From contig NZ_JASBQE010000107.1 of NCBI RefSeq assembly GCF_029960785.1, positions 1 through 38,693 on the forward strand: a stretch of DNA of 38,693 nucleotides, in the 5' to 3' direction. Origin of the DNA: Polyangium sp. 15x6. Lineage in GTDB: Bacteria > Myxococcota_A > Polyangia > Polyangiales > Polyangiaceae. The position numbers were made by a program, and so were the translations under genes. Under the pieces are notes generated by a model. That model did no database searches, had not been told where the DNA came from, and was given only the letters and a program-made list of their open reading frames with translations. Below are positions 12,208 to 24,209 of the stretch, piece by piece (position 1 is the stretch's first letter; every line of letters begins with the position of its first letter).

Positions 12208-13770
12208 TCACGCAGAGCGCGCGAGCCGCCGGAACCTCTCCGCGAGGCGCCAGGCGATGCGCGTCGCCATGGCCATGATCGGCTCCTGCGAATTCACGCC
12301 GATGCTCGTCGGCAAGATCGAGCCGTCGGCCACGAAGAGCCCCGGCAGCTCGTACGTCTGGCCGTCCGGATCGACGACCCCGCGCCGCGGATCGTTCGCG
12401 GCGCGCGCGCTCCCGAGCGGGTGGAACGCCATGCATTCGAGGCGGCGCGCGTCGTAGTTCGACCGTTCGAGCGCGAGCGCATCGTCCATCGTGCGCACCG
12501 GACCCGCGCCCGTCACCGACGTGTAGACCTCGCGCGCGCCGGCCGCGAGCGCCATCTCCGACACGATCGTGATCCCACGCCGCAGCCGCGCGAGGTCCTG
12601 CGGCGCCATCTCATACGTCAGGATCGGCTCGCGCCCTGGACCCGCCCGCACCGTGCCTCCGCCTTCGTCGTGCACCATCGCGCCGAACACCGCGAGCCTC
12701 CGGACCTCGCGCGCCATGCGCCGGAGCCGCGGGCCCACGCCCGGCATGCCCGCCGCGAGCACGTTCACGCTGCTGTACACGCCGACGAGCTTGATCCCCT
12801 CGGGCGCGAAATCGTCCGAGTACACGCTCTGCATCGCGCCGTCCCAGCCGCCGATCTCCTCGTCGAACACCGCCACGCAGCGCACGGCTGGGTGGAGCGT
12901 CACCCGCCGTCCGAGCTTCTCGCTCGTCCGCCCCACGCCGCTCGCCCCGAGCAAGAGCGGCGTGTGCAGCGTCCCGCAAGCGGCCACGACGACCGGCGCG
13001 CGCACGACGAACCGGAACGACGGCCGCCCGCCCTCGCCGCCGAGCAGCCACCCCTCGACGCCGGCCGCGCGCCCGTTTTCGACGCGCACCCGCGTCACGA
13101 GCGCGTCCGACACGATGCGCGCTCCGCGCGCGAGCGCGCTCGGCAGATACGACACGTCCACCGAGCGTTTCGCGCCTGCCGGACATGTAAAGTTGCACCG
13201 CGCGTTGCCCTCGCACGCCTCGGCGTTGCGGCGCATGGGCTTCATCGTGAGCCCGAGCTTCTCCGCGCCCTCGACGAACTTCATCGTGGAGCGCGAGCGC
13301 AACGTGGCCGGCACCTCGCGCACGGACAGCCTGCGCTCGACGTCCTCGTATGCCGGTTCGAGCGCGCGCTCGGAGAGCGCGTCGAGCCCGAGATCGGCGA
13401 CCCACTGATGATGCACGCTGCTCGGGATCCGGAAGCAAACGCCGCCCGTCAGCAGCGACGAACCTCCCACGGCCCGCCCCATGGTGATCGCGATGATCGG
13501 CGTCTGCCCGATCCCGAATGCGGTCGCCATGCCCGACTCGCGGAACAGCCGGCGCAGCGCCTCGCTCGGCCGGAACCGCTGGTACTCTTCAGGCCGGTAA
13601 TACGGCCCCTCTTCGAGCACGATCACCCGCAGGCCCGCCTCGGCGAGCAGCGTCGCGACGACCGAGCCGCCCGCCCCGGACCCGACCACGACCACGTCGC
13701 ACGACGCCTCGAACGGCCCCGACAAGTCCCGCCCGTGGACGACACTCTCGCCCGATGGAACGTCGCTCAT
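12208..13770 (-). CDS. GMC-family FAD oxidoreductase
   Basis: A 520-residue flavoprotein of the glucose-methanol-choline family, oxidising an alcohol or sugar hydroxyl. The FAD-binding VVVGSGAGGSVVATLLAEAG is near residue 27, followed by LEEGP, the MGRAVGGSS loop and a C-terminal active-site region with HPLGSAR and NSQEPIMAMA. The segment CEGNARCNFTC contains three cysteines typical of the branch related to long-chain alcohol and sterol oxidases, possibly structural. The start is ATG 13770, overlapping the stop of the upstream small gene in ATGA; longer upstream frames shadow that gene. The substrate is not predictable. Confidence 0.9.
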   Translation of the reverse strand: MSDVPSGESVVHGRDLSGPFEASCDVVVVGSGAGGSVVATLLAEAGLRVIVLEEGPYYRPEEYQRFRPSEALRRLFRESGMATAFGIGQTPIIAITMGRAVGGSSLLTGGVCFRIPSSVHHQWVADLGLDALSERALEPAYEDVERRLSVREVPATLRSRSTMKFVEGAEKLGLTMKPMRRNAEACEGNARCNFTCPAGAKRSVDVSYLPSALARGARIVSDALVTRVRVENGRAAGVEGWLLGGEGGRPSFRFVVRAPVVVAACGTLHTPLLLGASGVGRTSEKLGRRVTLHPAVRCVAVFDEEIGGWDGAMQSVYSDDFAPEGIKLVGVYSSVNVLAAGMPGVGPRLRRMAREVRRLAVFGAMVHDEGGGTVRAGPGREPILTYEMAPQDLARLRRGITIVSEMALAAGAREVYTSVTGAGPVRTMDDALALERSNYDARRLECMAFHPLGSARAANDPRRGVVDPDGQTYELPGLFVADGSILPTSIGVNSQEPIMAMATRIAWRLAERFRRLARSA

Positions 13771-14282
13771 GGCGCGCGCTCCGGCGCGACCGGAAGCCGC
13801 CTTCGTGCCGTCGTGCTCGGCCGATCGAATCCTGTCGACGCGAGCTCCTCGCCCTCCTCGAACACGGCCACGCTCGTCGGCACCTTGAAGGCCACGAGCA
13901 GCAGCGCGAAGAACCCGAACTGGCTTTGCTCGAGCGCCTCCAGGTAGCCGACCCGCCGCGCGATGGGCAGGCGGCTCATGCGGGAGAAGGCGCCGATCAC
14001 GAAGAGCGGCATCATCTCGAGCAGCCACGTGAGCACCGCGAAGCCGCGGCGCAGATCGCTGCTCGCGCGGCCCACGGAGTGGTCGAGCCACGCCGTGGCG
14101 CGCTCGCAGATGGCCGGGCTCGCCGGCACGATCGCGCCCTTTTCGTCCTCGTCCGCGTACATGGCCTCTGCGTAGGCGAAGACCACCCGACGCGCCCGGG
14201 GCGAGAGGCCCCGCACGGGCCAATCGAGCCGATCGAGCGCGACTTCGGTCCCCGACGACTGTCCCGAAGCGACGTCCGACAT
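13767..14282 (-). CDS. Small accessory subunit of the GMC oxidoreductase (probable)
   Basis: A 171-residue protein translationally coupled to the GMC enzyme (ATGA overlap). It is mostly helical, with two hydrophobic stretches (VLTWLLEMMPLFVIGAF and FGFFALLLVAFKVPTSVAVFE) that could associate with the membrane or the enzyme. There is no signal peptide. GMC dehydrogenases are often paired with a small subunit (for example gluconate 2-dehydrogenase subunit 3 types), and position and size suggest the same here. The Ser/Gly N-terminus resembles the start of the downstream gene (both begin MSDV), likely coincidence. Family assignment is inference from context. Confidence 0.7.
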   Translation of the reverse strand: MSDVASGQSSGTEVALDRLDWPVRGLSPRARRVVFAYAEAMYADEDEKGAIVPASPAICERATAWLDHSVGRASSDLRRGFAVLTWLLEMMPLFVIGAFSRMSRLPIARRVGYLEALEQSQFGFFALLLVAFKVPTSVAVFEEGEELASTGFDRPSTTARRRLPVAPERAP

Positions 14283-14417: not shown

Positions 14418-14993
14418 TCAGTAGGGGAGGACGCACTGCGTGCTGCAGCCGCTGCCACCACCCCAGATCTGGGAAGCACCCCTCGGCGCGATGATGCCGC
14501 CGCAGGTGGTGACCTGAACGGCGTGCGGCGGGCAGGGGGGCTCTTCATCCGGAACGCAGACGCACTCGGGCGGGGCGATGATCGACTGAACGCCGCCCGG
14601 CGCCTTGACACTGCACTCCTCATGCTCGCCAGGCGGGCATGCGGGGGGCTCTTCGTCCGGAACGCAGACGCACTCGGGCGGGGCGATGATCGACTGAACG
14701 CCGCCCGGCGCCTTCACGCTGCACTCCTCGTGCTCGCCAGGCGGGCACGCGCTCGGCGGCTCCTCGACGGGCGGCTCCTCGACGGGCGGCTCCTCCGGCG
14801 GAGGCTCGCACTCGCAAGGGGGCGCGACGAGGTTCGACGAGCCGGCGACGACCGTCGGGCACTCGCAGGGCGCGGCGAGCGACTGCTCGCTCTGCCCGAT
14901 CAGCTCCTCTTTCTCGCTGACGCTACACCCAGCGGCGAACGCGAAGAGAGAAGCCATCGCAAAGAGCCCGGTGATCGAACGAAGCGTATTCAT
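14418..14993 (-). CDS. Cys/Pro-rich repeat lipoprotein
   Basis: A 191-residue exported lipoprotein of unknown function. The signal peptide ends FAFAAGC (lipid Cys23). A Glu-rich neck (EKEELIGQSEQSL) is followed by a Pro/Glu spacer with VEEPP repeats. Two near-identical 36-residue repeats come next (CPPGEHEECSVK ... IIAPPECVCVP); a degenerate third unit (CPPHAVQVTTCGGIIAPRG) and a Gly/Ser/Cys tail ending CVLPY close the protein. Cysteines are paired, as in disulfide-stabilised secreted proteins. The start is ATG 14993 with AGGAGT 7-8 nt upstream; an upstream in-frame TTG (15065) has no comparable site. It is a single-gene unit with its own terminator, divergent from a two-component system across 401 bp. 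Confidence 0.85.
   Translation of the reverse strand: MNTLRSITGLFAMASLFAFAAGCSVSEKEELIGQSEQSLAAPCECPTVVAGSSNLVAPPCECEPPPEEPPVEEPPVEEPPSACPPGEHEECSVKAPGGVQSIIAPPECVCVPDEEPPACPPGEHEECSVKAPGGVQSIIAPPECVCVPDEEPPCPPHAVQVTTCGGIIAPRGASQIWGGGSGCSTQCVLPY
14541..14750 (-). repeat. Two tandem 108-bp in-frame repeats
   Basis: Copy 1 begins at 14541 and copy 2 at 14649. Over about 100 aligned bases I count five differences, and each is synonymous (Asp GAT/GAC, Ser AGT/AGC, Val GTC/GTG, His CAT/CAC, Ala GCA/GCG). Confidence 0.9.
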
Positions 14994-15394
14994 GAGATGA
15001 CTCCTACGCGCATTCTCTCGCGCGTCATGAGAACCAGACACGTCGGATACACGTTCCCCCAGCAACAGCGCGGCGAGCTGTGAATCCGAATACCTGCGGA
15101 GACCAATTTGGAGTTCCGCGATGACTCTTCTACTTACCAGTTCACCTCCCGGAAGAGCAAGGACTTTCGTTTTCCAGCGCTCTGATCCAGGGCAGGGGAG
15201 CAGGAATGCGTCGCCGGCCCCGTTCCGTACGTTTTCCCTTCCGGAATGGGTTTCCGTGCGGGCATCATGAAGGGTTTCGTTCTCGCCGCGCGGCCCCTTT
15301 GCATTTCTTCATGGAAGGCCTCGCAGGCGCTTCACGAGGCGCGCGCAAGCTCGGGTGACGGCCGCTTTCGTGGCCCTGGTACTCTGCCAACGCC
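14994..15394. other. 401-bp divergent intergenic region, no gene
   Basis: Upstream region of both the Cys-rich lipoprotein gene (-) and the response regulator gene (+). It is AT-richer than the genes around it. On the minus strand TTGCTC-N18-TAAGTA (about 15133-15162) is a weak sigma-70-like candidate. TTCCGGAA, flanked by CCC and TGGG, near 15236-15250 is a short palindrome that could bind the response regulator. Short ORFs here look like chance. Confidence 0.4.
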
Positions 15395-20670: not shown

Positions 20671-21108
20671 TCAGTCCTCGTTGTGCACGAACGCGGAGTT
20701 GATCTCGCCGCCGCAGAGGAAGGCCTGGACGGTCACCACGTCGTAGGCGTTTTCCCAGTGCTCCGTGATGCGCCCGTCGCGGAAGCGCCACACCCCGCAG
20801 AACGGTACCGCGAGCGTCGCCCCGTCGCGGCTGGCCCGCAGGACGCCGAAGACGGCCCCGAAGTGGTCGTTCGCGGTGATGTGCTGCACGTCCATCACCA
20901 GGGTATTGCCGGTCATGCGGATGAGCTCGCACTCGTGAGCGACCGCGGCTTCCCTGCCGACGACACGGCCGGCCATGGCATCACGAAAGAATGCCCGATC
21001 GGCCTTGTGCAGGATCATATCGTCGGCGACGTACTCCCCGATGCGCGACAGATCGGCATACAAGGTGCGCAACATCCGGACGTTCGGGTGAAGGGCTGTG
21101 GTATTCAT
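20671..21108 (-). CDS. NTF2-like (SnoaL-type) protein, candidate dehydratase/cyclase
   Basis: A 145-residue protein with the cone-shaped NTF2-like pattern: N-terminal helix with LRTLYADL, DDMILH early, HITANDHFGAVFGVLRASRDG in the middle, and FCGVWRFRDGRITEHWENAYD near the end. This fold includes polyketide cyclases (SnoaL), ketosteroid isomerase and scytalone dehydratase. His and Asp residues line these segments, but specific catalytic roles cannot be assigned here. It starts at ATG 21108, overlapping the aldo/keto reductase stop (ATGA), with GGAGG just upstream. As last gene of the rppA operon it probably dehydrates or cyclises a product of the upstream enzymes. Confidence 0.82.
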   Translation of the reverse strand: MNTTALHPNVRMLRTLYADLSRIGEYVADDMILHKADRAFFRDAMAGRVVGREAAVAHECELIRMTGNTLVMDVQHITANDHFGAVFGVLRASRDGATLAVPFCGVWRFRDGRITEHWENAYDVVTVQAFLCGGEINSAFVHNED

Positions 21109-22058
21109 GCGACCTCCTTCGTGGTGGAAGTTGCGGTGGGCGACGGACGCCACGTCGGCACGCTCGCGGCGAGGTCCGCGAGCTCGGTCATTTCCTTCTC
21201 GCTCAGCGTGATCTGGGCGGCGCGGAGGTTCTCCTCCAGGTGCGTGAAGGAGGAGGTGCCGGGGATCGCGAGAATGGCCGGCGACTTGTGCAGGAGCCAG
21301 GCGAGGGCGAGCTGGGCGGGCGTGGCGCCGCGCTTCTTGGCAAACCCGGCGAGGATGCTGTTCGGCCCGGCGAGGGCGCCGTGGCCCATGGGGAACCACG
21401 GAATGAAGGCGATGCCGCGCTCTTCGCAATAACGCAGGACCGGCTCGCCGGCGCGGTCCGCGACGTTGTAGAGATTCTCCACGGCGACGATCTGGGTGAT
21501 CGCGCGAGCTTTTTCGAGCTGCTCGATGGTGACCTCGGGCTGCCCGGAGAGCGCGATATGGCGGATCTTGCCCTGCTCCCGGAGCCGGACGAGCTCGCCG
21601 AGCTGATCGGCCAGCGGGACGGCCGGGTCGATGCGGTGGAGCTGATAGAGCTCGATGCGCTCGAGCCCGAGGTTGCGCAGGCTCAGCTCCACCTGCTGGC
21701 GGAGGTACGCGGGGCGTCCGCAGGGGACGATGTACGGTTTGTCCCGGTTCGTCCAGTCCTCCGGTCCGGAACGCAAAAGCCCGCCCTTGGTGGTGATCAC
21801 GAGCCCCGCAGGGTAGGGATGGAGCGCGCGACGGATGATCTGCTCATTGGCCGCCGGACCGTAGGAATCGGCCGTGTCGATGAAATTGACGCCCAGGTCG
21901 ACGGCGCGGCGGAGCAGCCGGATCGCCGCGTCCGGGTCGGTCGGCGGGCCCCACATGCCGGGCCCCGTCAAATACATGGCGCCATAACCGAGGCGCCGCA
22001 CGGGAAGGTCGCCGCCGAGGTTGAACGTCGACGACGGAGCTTTGAGTGCTGTATTCAT
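21105..22058 (-). CDS. Aldo/keto reductase
   Basis: A 317-residue NAD(P)H-dependent oxidoreductase of (beta/alpha)8 fold. The catalytic tetrad is visible: Asp61 and Tyr66 in DTADSYG, Lys91 in ITTKGG and His141 in YQLHRID. The C-terminal cofactor region contains IPGTSSFTHLEENLRA, as in the family. It starts at ATG 22058 with AGGAGGGG upstream and lies 54 bp after the type III polyketide synthase gene. Position suggests reduction of a ketone tautomer of the polyphenol made by that synthase; direct evidence for the substrate is lacking. Confidence 0.92.
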   Translation of the reverse strand: MNTALKAPSSTFNLGGDLPVRRLGYGAMYLTGPGMWGPPTDPDAAIRLLRRAVDLGVNFIDTADSYGPAANEQIIRRALHPYPAGLVITTKGGLLRSGPEDWTNRDKPYIVPCGRPAYLRQQVELSLRNLGLERIELYQLHRIDPAVPLADQLGELVRLREQGKIRHIALSGQPEVTIEQLEKARAITQIVAVENLYNVADRAGEPVLRYCEERGIAFIPWFPMGHGALAGPNSILAGFAKKRGATPAQLALAWLLHKSPAILAIPGTSSFTHLEENLRAAQITLSEKEMTELADLAASVPTWRPSPTATSTTKEVA

Positions 22059-22112
22059 TGCAGTCCCCTCCTGTCCTTCTCGATCACGACAGCGGCAGAA
22101 TGCGCGCCGTCC

Positions 22113-23171
22113 CTACCGGCCTTCCTTGGTCGTCCAGGAACCGACGTTCATTTCCGCCGTGATTCCGGGGCCGAACCCTGCGATGATTCCCTTGCCGCCG
22201 TTCTTGACCTGGTCGTCCGCGAACAGGCGGCCGATGGAGTCGAGCACGACCACGCTGGCGATGTTGCCGTATTCCGTCAACGTGGCCCTGCTGTACCGGA
22301 ACGCCTCGAGCGGTACGCCCAGGTACTTGCAAAGATCGTTGAGGATGCGCGGCCCGCCGGCGTGAATGATGTAGAAATCCAGATGGCCAACGTCCCAGCC
22401 GTGACGCGCGGTGAGATCGCGCAGCACGGGGGCGAGGGGCTTCATGGTCCCGGGGACCCGCTTGTCGAGTCTGAAATGGAATCCCGTTTCCTTCACGGCG
22501 TACGAGATCCATTCCTCGGTGTCCGGGATGATGTAGGCGGCGTTTCGCTCGAGCCGGATGCCGGTGCCTCCGCGGCCCCGGACGACGACCGCGCCCACCG
22601 CGTCCCCGAAGAGCCCGTCGGACAGGAGCGACCCGACGTCGTCGTCGGGCGGCTGGTAGCATAACGAGCAAAACTCGCAGGCCACGATGAGGACGTTGGC
22701 GCCGGGGTGCGCCATGCAGAAATCGTGGGCGCGATTGATGGCCGCCGCGCCGGCCGCGCAGCCGAGCTGCGCGATCGGGATCTGCCGCGTGTCGTGACGG
22801 AATCCCATGGTATTCACGAGCCAGGCCGTCATGGCCGGCATCATGAAGCCGGTGCACGAGACATAGAGGATGGCGTCGATGTCCTGCGCCGTGAGCTCTG
22901 CGTGCTCCAGCGCTCGCTGAATCACGGGCGGTACGCGGCGTTTGGCCTCGCTCACGTAGACCTTGTTGCGGACCTCGAACCCAGGGTGCTCGAGGGTCTG
23001 CTCCAGGGGCTGAATGATGTGCCGCTTCCGCACCCCGGTGCTGCTGATGAGCCGCATGGCGAGCTTGAGCTGCGGTTTGCCCGCGTGCAATCGCTCGGCC
23101 AATTTCAGCGTATCTTCCATCGTGACGATGTACTCCGGAACCGCGACTTCCGGCCTGCACAAGGTGGCCAT
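22113..23171 (-). CDS. rppA: Type III polyketide synthase, 1,3,6,8-tetrahydroxynaphthalene synthase
   Basis: Predicted to condense five malonyl-CoA into 1,3,6,8-tetrahydroxynaphthalene. The 352-residue protein matches Streptomyces RppA as I remember it, in sequence and numbering: catalytic Cys138 (QLGCAAG), His270 (YIIHAGGPRIL) and Asn303 (LTEYGNIAS), plus Cys106 (YVSCTGF) and Cys171 (EFCSLCYQP), features of the RppA pocket. It has EHPGFEVRNKVY and ends in GFGPGITAEMN. The C-terminus is about 20 residues shorter than that Streptomyces protein. It starts at ATG 23171 with GGAGGGG close upstream. It lies 118 bp after a small gene and 54 bp before the reductase gene. No P450 or quinone-forming monooxygenase, the usual bacterial partners, is in the window. 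Confidence 0.95.
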   Translation of the reverse strand: MATLCRPEVAVPEYIVTMEDTLKLAERLHAGKPQLKLAMRLISSTGVRKRHIIQPLEQTLEHPGFEVRNKVYVSEAKRRVPPVIQRALEHAELTAQDIDAILYVSCTGFMMPAMTAWLVNTMGFRHDTRQIPIAQLGCAAGAAAINRAHDFCMAHPGANVLIVACEFCSLCYQPPDDDVGSLLSDGLFGDAVGAVVVRGRGGTGIRLERNAAYIIPDTEEWISYAVKETGFHFRLDKRVPGTMKPLAPVLRDLTARHGWDVGHLDFYIIHAGGPRILNDLCKYLGVPLEAFRYSRATLTEYGNIASVVVLDSIGRLFADDQVKNGGKGIIAGFGPGITAEMNVGSWTTKEGR

Positions 23172-23289: not shown

Positions 23290-23529
23290 TCATTTCGTGT
23301 CTTCATCCGCCGCATTTCGCGGCTGCCTCGGGGCGGCTGCATCCGACTTCGCGCATCGGAGGCTCGCGAGAACCAGCTCCAGGAGCTCGGTCGCGAACGT
23401 GATGACGTCGCGAGATTCGTATCCGGCGCTCATCAGATCACGGAACATGGTCCTCGCGAGGACCGAGATCTCCGTGCCCGGCGTCGATCCTCGTACGGAG
23501 CGCGGGTTCTGACTGTCCGCCGGCGGCAT
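23290..23529 (-). CDS. Small helical protein heading the rppA operon
   Basis: A 79-residue protein with a disordered start (MPPADSQNPRSVRGSTPGTE) and one folded-looking helical core (ISVLARTMFRDLMSAGYESRDVITFATELLELVLASL), then a charged tail. The pattern of a short Arg/Asp-rich helix, GYESRDV turn and Leu-rich helix suggests a small regulatory or adaptor module, and I believe similar short proteins occur in this bacterial group, though I cannot check that here. The start ATG 23529 follows CGGAGAG; a longer frame to 23619 adds low-quality sequence. It may be cotranscribed with rppA across a 118-bp gap. No DNA-binding motif is evident. Confidence 0.65.
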   Translation of the reverse strand: MPPADSQNPRSVRGSTPGTEISVLARTMFRDLMSAGYESRDVITFATELLELVLASLRCAKSDAAAPRQPRNAADEDTK

Positions 23530-24209
23530 GGCATTGCTCTCCGATTTCTCCGCTCGTGGGAGGAGCCGTCGATTGCACGACCGAGCAAGCTCCAGACCAC
23601 GCGAGCGCTCACCTAGCATTCATGAAATTGCGGTTGCCAGACTCCAGCGTTGCCGCGCATTCATCGATGCAAACGAGCTCGACTATGTCTGGTGCGGCAA
23701 GGTGGGATACCGCATGTGCCGGCCGGGTAAATGCTGCCCGGTTTCATTCGCGGCATATGGGTGTGCCTTGCCCGGCCCGCTCCGCCGCCATGGCCGAATC
23801 CAAACGCGACGTCGGGAACGCGCGGCGCCTCGTTTTGCACGAGGAAGATCCCGGCTCGGAGGAGCGGCGTCGTAGGCAGCCTGCGCGCGCGCCGGGGGGC
23901 CTTCCTCGCGGCGCCCGCGTCGACGGGTCGGGAGCCGCCCCCTCCACGACGCCCGCCCCCCTCAGCCGCGTCGAACGGCGCCGTCCTCCTCCCCGAAGGC
24001 GCGCCGTCGGGTTCGGCAACGTGATCACGGGGCAAACCCTCGTCCACGCCATGCGCGCGTCGGGAGCCCTGGACGGACGGCCGTCCGCGTGGTCCGGCCG
24101 ATGCTCCAGCGCGGCGCTTTTCAATCACGCGGAGGCGGAAAACGACGACAAAAGAACGAGCGCCCTTCGGCGGAAGGGCGCTCGCGGTGCAGCCTCGGGG
24201 ATTCGTCGA
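23530..24209. other. 680-bp gap, no confident gene
   Basis: It holds the leader of the rppA operon on its left and the terminator of the hydrolase gene on its right. ORFs crossing it are Arg/Pro/Gly-rich chance frames. The segment 23600-23760 is AT-richer than the surroundings, with a small CCGGG/CCCGG hairpin near 23724-23742; promoters for the minus-strand operon probably lie here, but I cannot place one. Confidence 0.5.
24146..24184 (-). terminator. Rho-independent terminator of the transporter operon
   Basis: A perfect 12-bp stem (24157-24168 with 24173-24184) and GGCG loop. On the minus strand the stem is followed by TTCTTTTGTC. It lies 26 bp past the dienelactone hydrolase stop and closes the operon. 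Confidence 0.9.

Follow-up and report, generated by a model that had tools for sequence, protein, structure and literature searches.

The rppA-AKR-NTF2 operon and its products

The window analysed here is the whole of contig NZ_JASBQE010000107.1 (38,693 nucleotides) of Polyangium sp. 15x6 (assembly GCF_029960785.1), a soil myxobacterium of the genus Polyangium with a genome of 13.4 Mb. Its minus strand carries a candidate operon for the synthesis of 1,8-dihydroxynaphthalene (DHN). Three contiguous and co-directional genes, for an RppA-type polyketide synthase (PKS), an aldo/keto reductase (AKR) and an NTF2-fold protein, follow one another in this order of transcription (Table 1), and six relatives have the identical arrangement. 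The rppA and AKR genes are 54 bp apart, and the AKR stop codon and the NTF2 start codon share the letters ATGA (21108-21105). The open reading frames (ORFs), the protein families and the coordinates confirm the original prediction of an operon with such an overlap.

Table 1. Features of the operon and its upstream region in the window
Feature	Position	Strand	Basis
RppA-type type III PKS, 1,3,6,8-tetrahydroxynaphthalene (THN) synthase, 352 aa	22113-23171	-	1u0m match; Chal_sti_synt N and C; catalytic residues
AKR, predicted THN / 1,3,8-trihydroxynaphthalene reductase, 317 aa	21105-22058	-	PF00248; AKR13B2 8hnq; D-Y-K-H
SnoaL_2/NTF2-fold protein, predicted scytalone/vermelone dehydratase, 145 aa	20671-21108	-	PF12680; AlphaFold2 model; fold matches; ATGA overlap
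109-aa ORF, no family assignment	23290-23619	-	kept in Polyangium loci; 118 bp upstream of rppA
Terminator-like hairpin, 13 pairs then T-rich tail	24156-24185	-	consensus match only

RppA contains both the N and the C domain of the Pfam family Chal_sti_synt. Its best solved relative is 1u0m (576 bits, E 2.8e-172, residues 1-350 aligned), which we take to be the THN synthase of S. coelicolor; the next-best solved entry scores far lower, at 126.5 bits. Cys106, Cys138, His270 and Asn303, the residues that presumably have catalytic roles in RppA, are found in all 23 aligned RppA rows, the window included. The window protein has the Cys-His-Asn triad of an RppA/CHS-like THN synthase, and the catalytic residues are present as had been claimed.

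The second protein matches PF00248 (Aldo_ket_red) with an E of 2.4e-62, and the AKR tetrad D61/Y66/K91/H141 is in place (D-Y-K-H in 26 of 26 aligned rows). Its closest solved structure is AKR13B2 (8hnq), with 8te8 also among the near structures, and its nearest group is AKR13/YdbC, where the model PRK10376 scores 269.1 bits, under the cut-off of 280. Identity to the AKRs of those other-genus loci that have one (L021-L041) is 61-73%. A scan at E ≤ 1 gave Aldo_ket_red and a sub-cut-off Sel1 match, with no match to a hydroxynaphthalene reductase of the short-chain dehydrogenase/reductase (SDR) type, in agreement with the earlier assignment to the AKR and not the SDR family. The protein is predicted to be a naphthol reductase acting on THN and 1,3,8-trihydroxynaphthalene.

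The third protein belongs to PF12680 (SnoaL_2; E 2.7e-11, over the cut-off), with SnoaL and LEH matches below the cut-off; PF02982 (Scytalone_dh), to which scytalone dehydratases belong, gave no match at E ≤ 1. Its AlphaFold2 model has a mean pLDDT of 85.7. The model resembles Bal32a (1tuh; Z 15.4, rmsd 2.9, 124 aligned), a SnoaL-like protein (3kkg; Z 15.2, rmsd 2.8, 124 aligned) and TerC (6d34; Z 13.8, rmsd 2.6, 121 aligned), as well as limonene epoxide hydrolases and ketosteroid isomerases; rows within 1 Z are treated as tied, and the fold alone is not diagnostic of function. The polyketide cyclase IdmH is among both the fold and the sequence neighbours. Scytalone dehydratase is not among the best 50 rows of each fold search, an absence that proves nothing. 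For TerB/TerC as a functional parallel, a literature search gave nothing relevant among the matches listed. Tyr17, His34, Cys104, Trp107, Arg108 and the motif EHWEN are kept in 6/6 profile-found rows linked to rppA (two or more of these being copies or near-copies of pattern-found genes) and in 6/6 rows without rppA; the second NTF2 copy of genome G800 stands outside this comparison. Tyr17 and His34, with His117, Glu119 and Asn120 of the motif, are invariant in every row compared. From its family and fold, the protein is predicted to be a scytalone/vermelone dehydratase.

Distribution of the trio

The genome search scored part of the first-pass candidates in large genomes, and absences are provisional to that extent; each locus was viewed with 1.5 kb of flank. 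RppA (E ≤ 1e-60) occurs in seven of the 183 genomes of the order, six of them Polyangium (the window's included) and one from another genus of the family. The AKR and NTF2 genes adjoin rppA in all seven, the AKR being split in one. A survey of rppA neighbourhoods had been proposed at the outset, and lack of conservation in related genomes was to count against the DHN reading; the trio is conserved there, more than by chance. The genome from the other genus (G162) has the trio at 82/86/74% identity, its AKR aligning in two pieces (86% and 68%). These pieces lie in different frames (locus L017, 11840-12774), owing to either a sequencing error or a decayed gene. Two weak NTF2 matches elsewhere in the phylum (G240, E 5.9e-16; G478, E 1.3e-11) have neither RppA nor AKR in their flanks and were taken as distant SnoaL proteins.

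An NTF2 alignment search of genome contigs gave 24 loci in three phyla. Three are from Polyangium, and the other 21 are from Inquilinus, Kutzneria, Dyella, Luteimonas, Luteibacter, Pseudomonas, Amycolatopsis, Streptomyces, Pseudonocardia, a metagenome-assembled genome of Propionibacteriaceae, Mycobacterium, Mycolicibacter and Actinoallomurus. Three loci (L018-L020) repeat L012, L015 and L013; they are kept out of trees and distances, and the 24-locus counts keep all 24. Of the 24 loci, 19 encode RppA and 22 the AKR. RppA is missing from five; three of these belong to genomes that have RppA elsewhere and two to genomes that do not (E ≤ 1e-60). In one of the latter, Pseudomonas sp. v388 (L040, 10001-10381), the NTF2 gene is kept in a neighbourhood like that of the trio in P. 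cichorii and P. capsici, with RppA and AKR absent from the locus; part of the cassette seems to have been lost here.

These counts bear on whether the AKR, as a pyridoxine-dehydrogenase-like enzyme of housekeeping metabolism, adjoins the other genes by chance. Such an origin would fit its nearest models and structures, which are of the YdbC/AKR13 kind (PRK10376, 8hnq, 8te8). The presence of AKR together with NTF2 in 22 loci over three phyla argues against it, as does the distance of the best AKR paralogue in the same genome, which is just 39% identical over part of its length. On these two grounds the chance neighbour was rejected, and we give it almost no weight.

Two families were searched as controls. 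In Dyella's family, rppA is present in 4/147 genomes and NTF2 in 4/147; these are the same four genomes, and in each the two genes are on one contig and strand, within ~5 kb. In Kutzneria's family, rppA (E ≤ 1e-80) is present in 21 of 200 genomes, in 23 copies, and NTF2 in seven of the 200. Because Kutzneria alone in its family has both, the NTF2 protein does not accompany rppA as a rule, and from the co-occurrence in the two families it follows that the NTF2/AKR pair is no by-product of rppA abundance. Kutzneria buriramensis has two complete RppA-AKR-NTF2 trios (L022 and L057), one of them followed by a multicopper oxidase gene.

Protein distances were compared over 17 loci, in which the window is the sole row from Polyangiales. 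The correlations are 0.83 for AKR/NTF2, 0.70 for RppA/AKR and 0.64 for RppA/NTF2, and each was reached by none of 2000 permutations. A tree was made of 52 RppAs, leaving out the repeat loci L050-L053, L055, L058, L059 and L093 and matches of <300 aligned positions, and labelling as unknown four RppAs without shown linkage. For L017, the residue counts, tree and distances used only the longest piece of the split AKR.

The same data address a role in which the NTF2-fold protein would assist the PKS as cyclase or aromatase, with the AKR reducing a quinone such as flaviolin and no deoxygenation taking place. The kinship to IdmH is in favour of such a role. Against it, 20 of the 21 rppA genomes in Kutzneria's family are without this NTF2 protein, and the NTF2 distances follow those of the AKR better than those of RppA (0.83 against 0.64). 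Streptomyces RppA, moreover, works without a cyclase. We consider a cyclase role very improbable.

A proposed route to 1,8-DHN

By analogy, the Polyangium operon very probably makes DHN, from which a black pigment known above all in fungi is built. In the proposed pathway, RppA would convert five molecules of malonyl-CoA to THN, the AKR would reduce THN to scytalone with NADPH, and the NTF2-fold protein would remove water from scytalone to give 1,3,8-trihydroxynaphthalene. In a second round, the same two enzymes would take 1,3,8-trihydroxynaphthalene to vermelone and then to DHN, which oxygen or unlinked oxidases would oxidise to a dark pigment. The DHN route is supported by what the sequences show of protein families, catalytic residues, linkage and co-inheritance; the reactions in Polyangium, the use of the two enzymes in two rounds and the final pigment we infer from the enzymes of Sorangium.

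Sorangium is a myxobacterium related to Polyangium. Its operon is reportedly ordered soceCHS1-bdsA-bdsB and encodes a type III PKS, an AKR (BdsA) and a dehydratase of the SnoaL2-like kind (BdsB), the same families as in the Polyangium operon. Sone et al. 2018 (AEM 84:e00258-18) described enzymes of Sorangium cellulosum that synthesise 1,8-DHN, and a passage of a later paper, PMC7154522, gives the reductase as an AKR that acts on tetra- and trihydroxynaphthalene (T4HN and T3HN). The naphthol reductase is an AKR rather than an SDR, as is the one predicted in Polyangium. The original prediction had offered the trio as a DHN-melanin-like pathway in which reduction and dehydration would be new for a bacterium. 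Its logic is supported by families, residues, linkage and co-inheritance; its novelty is not, both Sorangium sources being earlier, and a pathway new to bacteria was rejected. Because the Sorangium work was published in 2018, the Polyangium operon is a new example and not a new pathway. The two systems differ in genus, and Polyangium has an additional conserved 109-aa ORF upstream.

The extent to which the route runs is a separate matter. If reduction and dehydration took place once only, or if the route ended at a naphthalenone, the product would be scytalone, 1,3,8-trihydroxynaphthalene or a naphthalenone metabolite other than melanin. This shorter route would agree with the genes scanned in the window, which include neither a laccase nor a P450, and the O-methyltransferase, P450 and prenyltransferase genes of other lineages (see below) mean that end products probably differ. 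It is at odds with Sorangium, where the AKR is stated to act on both naphthols (PMC7154522) and the published product, by the title of Sone et al. 2018, is 1,8-DHN; the Polyangium operon also has the set of families reported for that of Sorangium. We consider the shorter route improbable and the full route to DHN the better account.

The fungal DHN-melanin pathway has the same intermediates as those proposed for Polyangium, and fungal scytalone dehydratase is, like the Polyangium protein, of the NTF2 fold. The enzymes differ: the fungal PKS is type I non-reducing and that of Polyangium type III, the fungal reductase is an SDR and not an AKR, and the fungal dehydratase belongs to Scytalone_dh and not to the SnoaL_2 type. 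The Polyangium system would thus function like the fungal one without being a member of it. In Streptomyces, RppA and a P450 lead to flaviolin or hexahydroxyperylenequinone pigments. Streptomyces RppA (the 1u0m match) is closely related to that of Polyangium, whereas a P450 is not among the scanned Polyangium neighbours and an AKR and NTF2 are there instead.

Several observations weigh against the DHN route or narrow its reach. The Polyangium pathway is predicted from genes, and its AKR and NTF2-fold protein are putative counterparts of Sorangium BdsA and BdsB by family. Neither a P450 nor a multicopper oxidase is found among the Pfam-scanned genes (~12.2-31.4 kb), which leaves polymerisation without an obvious linked enzyme; polymerisation would therefore be unlinked or spontaneous. 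EHWENAY was one of the two patterns of the scan that gave the 24 loci, and its invariance there is to that extent built in. The cassette is rare: NTF2 is present in 6/377 genomes of the phylum, two of them the weak matches above, and in 1/298 genomes of Kutzneria's order, that one being Kutzneria itself. L025, L030 and L038 depart from the usual gene order or strand, and L023 and L027 contain inserted genes. The NTF2 protein also occurs without rppA, in 6/200 genomes of Kutzneria's family and, at E ≤ 1e-60 for RppA, in the genomes of Mycolicibacter kumamotonensis (a draft) and Pseudomonas sp. v388. Finally, the RppAs of the trio do not form one clade among the 52, supported branches forcing at least five changes of label: several RppA lineages have gained, exchanged or lost the AKR/NTF2 pair.

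Neighbouring genes, related loci and significance

The ORF upstream of rppA has 58-90% identity in 5/5 other loci of the genus (L012-L016). Differences among relatives fall mostly at third positions, a coding-like pattern. Searches of Pfam and NCBIfam with this ORF at E ≤ 1 gave nothing, and it has no match in L017 or in loci of other genera. The terminator-like hairpin is between this ORF and the dienelactone-hydrolase gene upstream, and is a possible upstream limit of the transcription unit; three terminator-like sites were found against a mean of 2.0 in shuffles. Downstream of the operon is a convergent acetoacetate decarboxylase-like gene, under the Pfam cut-off. A GMC oxidoreductase gene (12208-14223) lies ~6.4 kb past the operon end, with several genes between. 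On other contigs of the genome there are 11 Cu-oxidase_2 matches, which are weak evidence, the family being matched also in 9/14 control genomes. The protein encoded at 14418-15065 (minus strand) consists of near-identical repeat units rich in Pro, Glu and Cys; its N-terminal stretch is lipoprotein-like by eye, and it has no Pfam match at E ≤ 0.001.

Accessory genes in other lineages were identified by a Pfam scan of 20 hand-chosen neighbouring proteins. Among complete trio loci, that of Kutzneria (L022) has a laccase-like multicopper oxidase, those of Inquilinus (L021), Dyella (L023) and Pseudomonas sp. C2B4 (L028) have O-methyltransferases, and those of Amycolatopsis pretoriensis (L025), A. 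antarctica (L030) and Mycobacterium simulans (L032) have P450s. The Actinoallomurus trio locus (L041) has a C-terminal P450 match and that of Luteibacter (L027) a berberine-bridge-type oxidase. Accessory genes also occur in loci without RppA. In Streptomyces huiliensis (L031, 4782-5891), which has three RppA copies elsewhere in its genome, an Orf2-type aromatic prenyltransferase gene comes directly after AKR-NTF2; a P450 gene follows AKR-NTF2 in Streptomyces sp. RP5T (L026), and another is near the lone NTF2 gene of Mycolicibacter (L035). This assortment of genes suggests lineage-specific products derived from DHN.

NTF2 homologues are found in another setting as well. In three genomes of Kutzneria's family (G901, G923, G908), a homologue with 42-48% identity to the window protein is inside a type II PKS operon. 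This operon has genes for an actI-like ketosynthase, a second ketosynthase and an actIII-like ketoreductase, an amidohydrolase_2 protein, a second SnoaL/DUF4440 protein, an FAA hydrolase and a metallo-beta-lactamase-fold protein, the last not found in G908. In G888 a contig end leaves the middle of the operon in view. The loci, that of G888 included, are L097 (3608-11045), L098, L099 and L083. Where the DHN-linked NTF2 proteins have Tyr122, these four homologues have Ala. RppA is absent at E ≤ 1e-80 from the genomes with these homologues.

A broader proposal, for and against which we find the balance even, is that the trio is a DHN-making module in at least three phyla with host-specific tailoring: Kutzneria would make melanin and S. 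huiliensis DHN meroterpenoids, others would use O-methyltransferases or, in several actinomycetes, P450s, and proteins related to the dehydratase would have a part in the separate type II PKS operon of some genomes in Kutzneria's family. If this is true, a class of bacterial DHN-derived metabolites awaits isolation. The available text of a survey of conserved biosynthetic gene clusters in Myxococcota (PMC12766979) has no occurrence of "melanin" and two of "type III PKS", both for alkylpyrone-type products, and Sorangium is unmentioned in that of PMC12842502. A literature search found no paper on the cross-phylum distribution of the trio; most subscription papers were outside its reach, and we make no claim that this distribution is unpublished.

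With this operon, Polyangium would be the second genus of myxobacteria to have a bacterial version of fungal DHN-melanin synthesis, assembled from other enzyme families. Polyangium genomes conserve the cassette, which occurs sparsely in distant phyla as well. Should its products be confirmed, the AKR and SnoaL-type enzymes would be handles for making 1,8-DHN, the allomelanin precursor, in simple hosts, and DHN-type pigments and DHN-derived metabolites would be worth seeking well beyond fungi.

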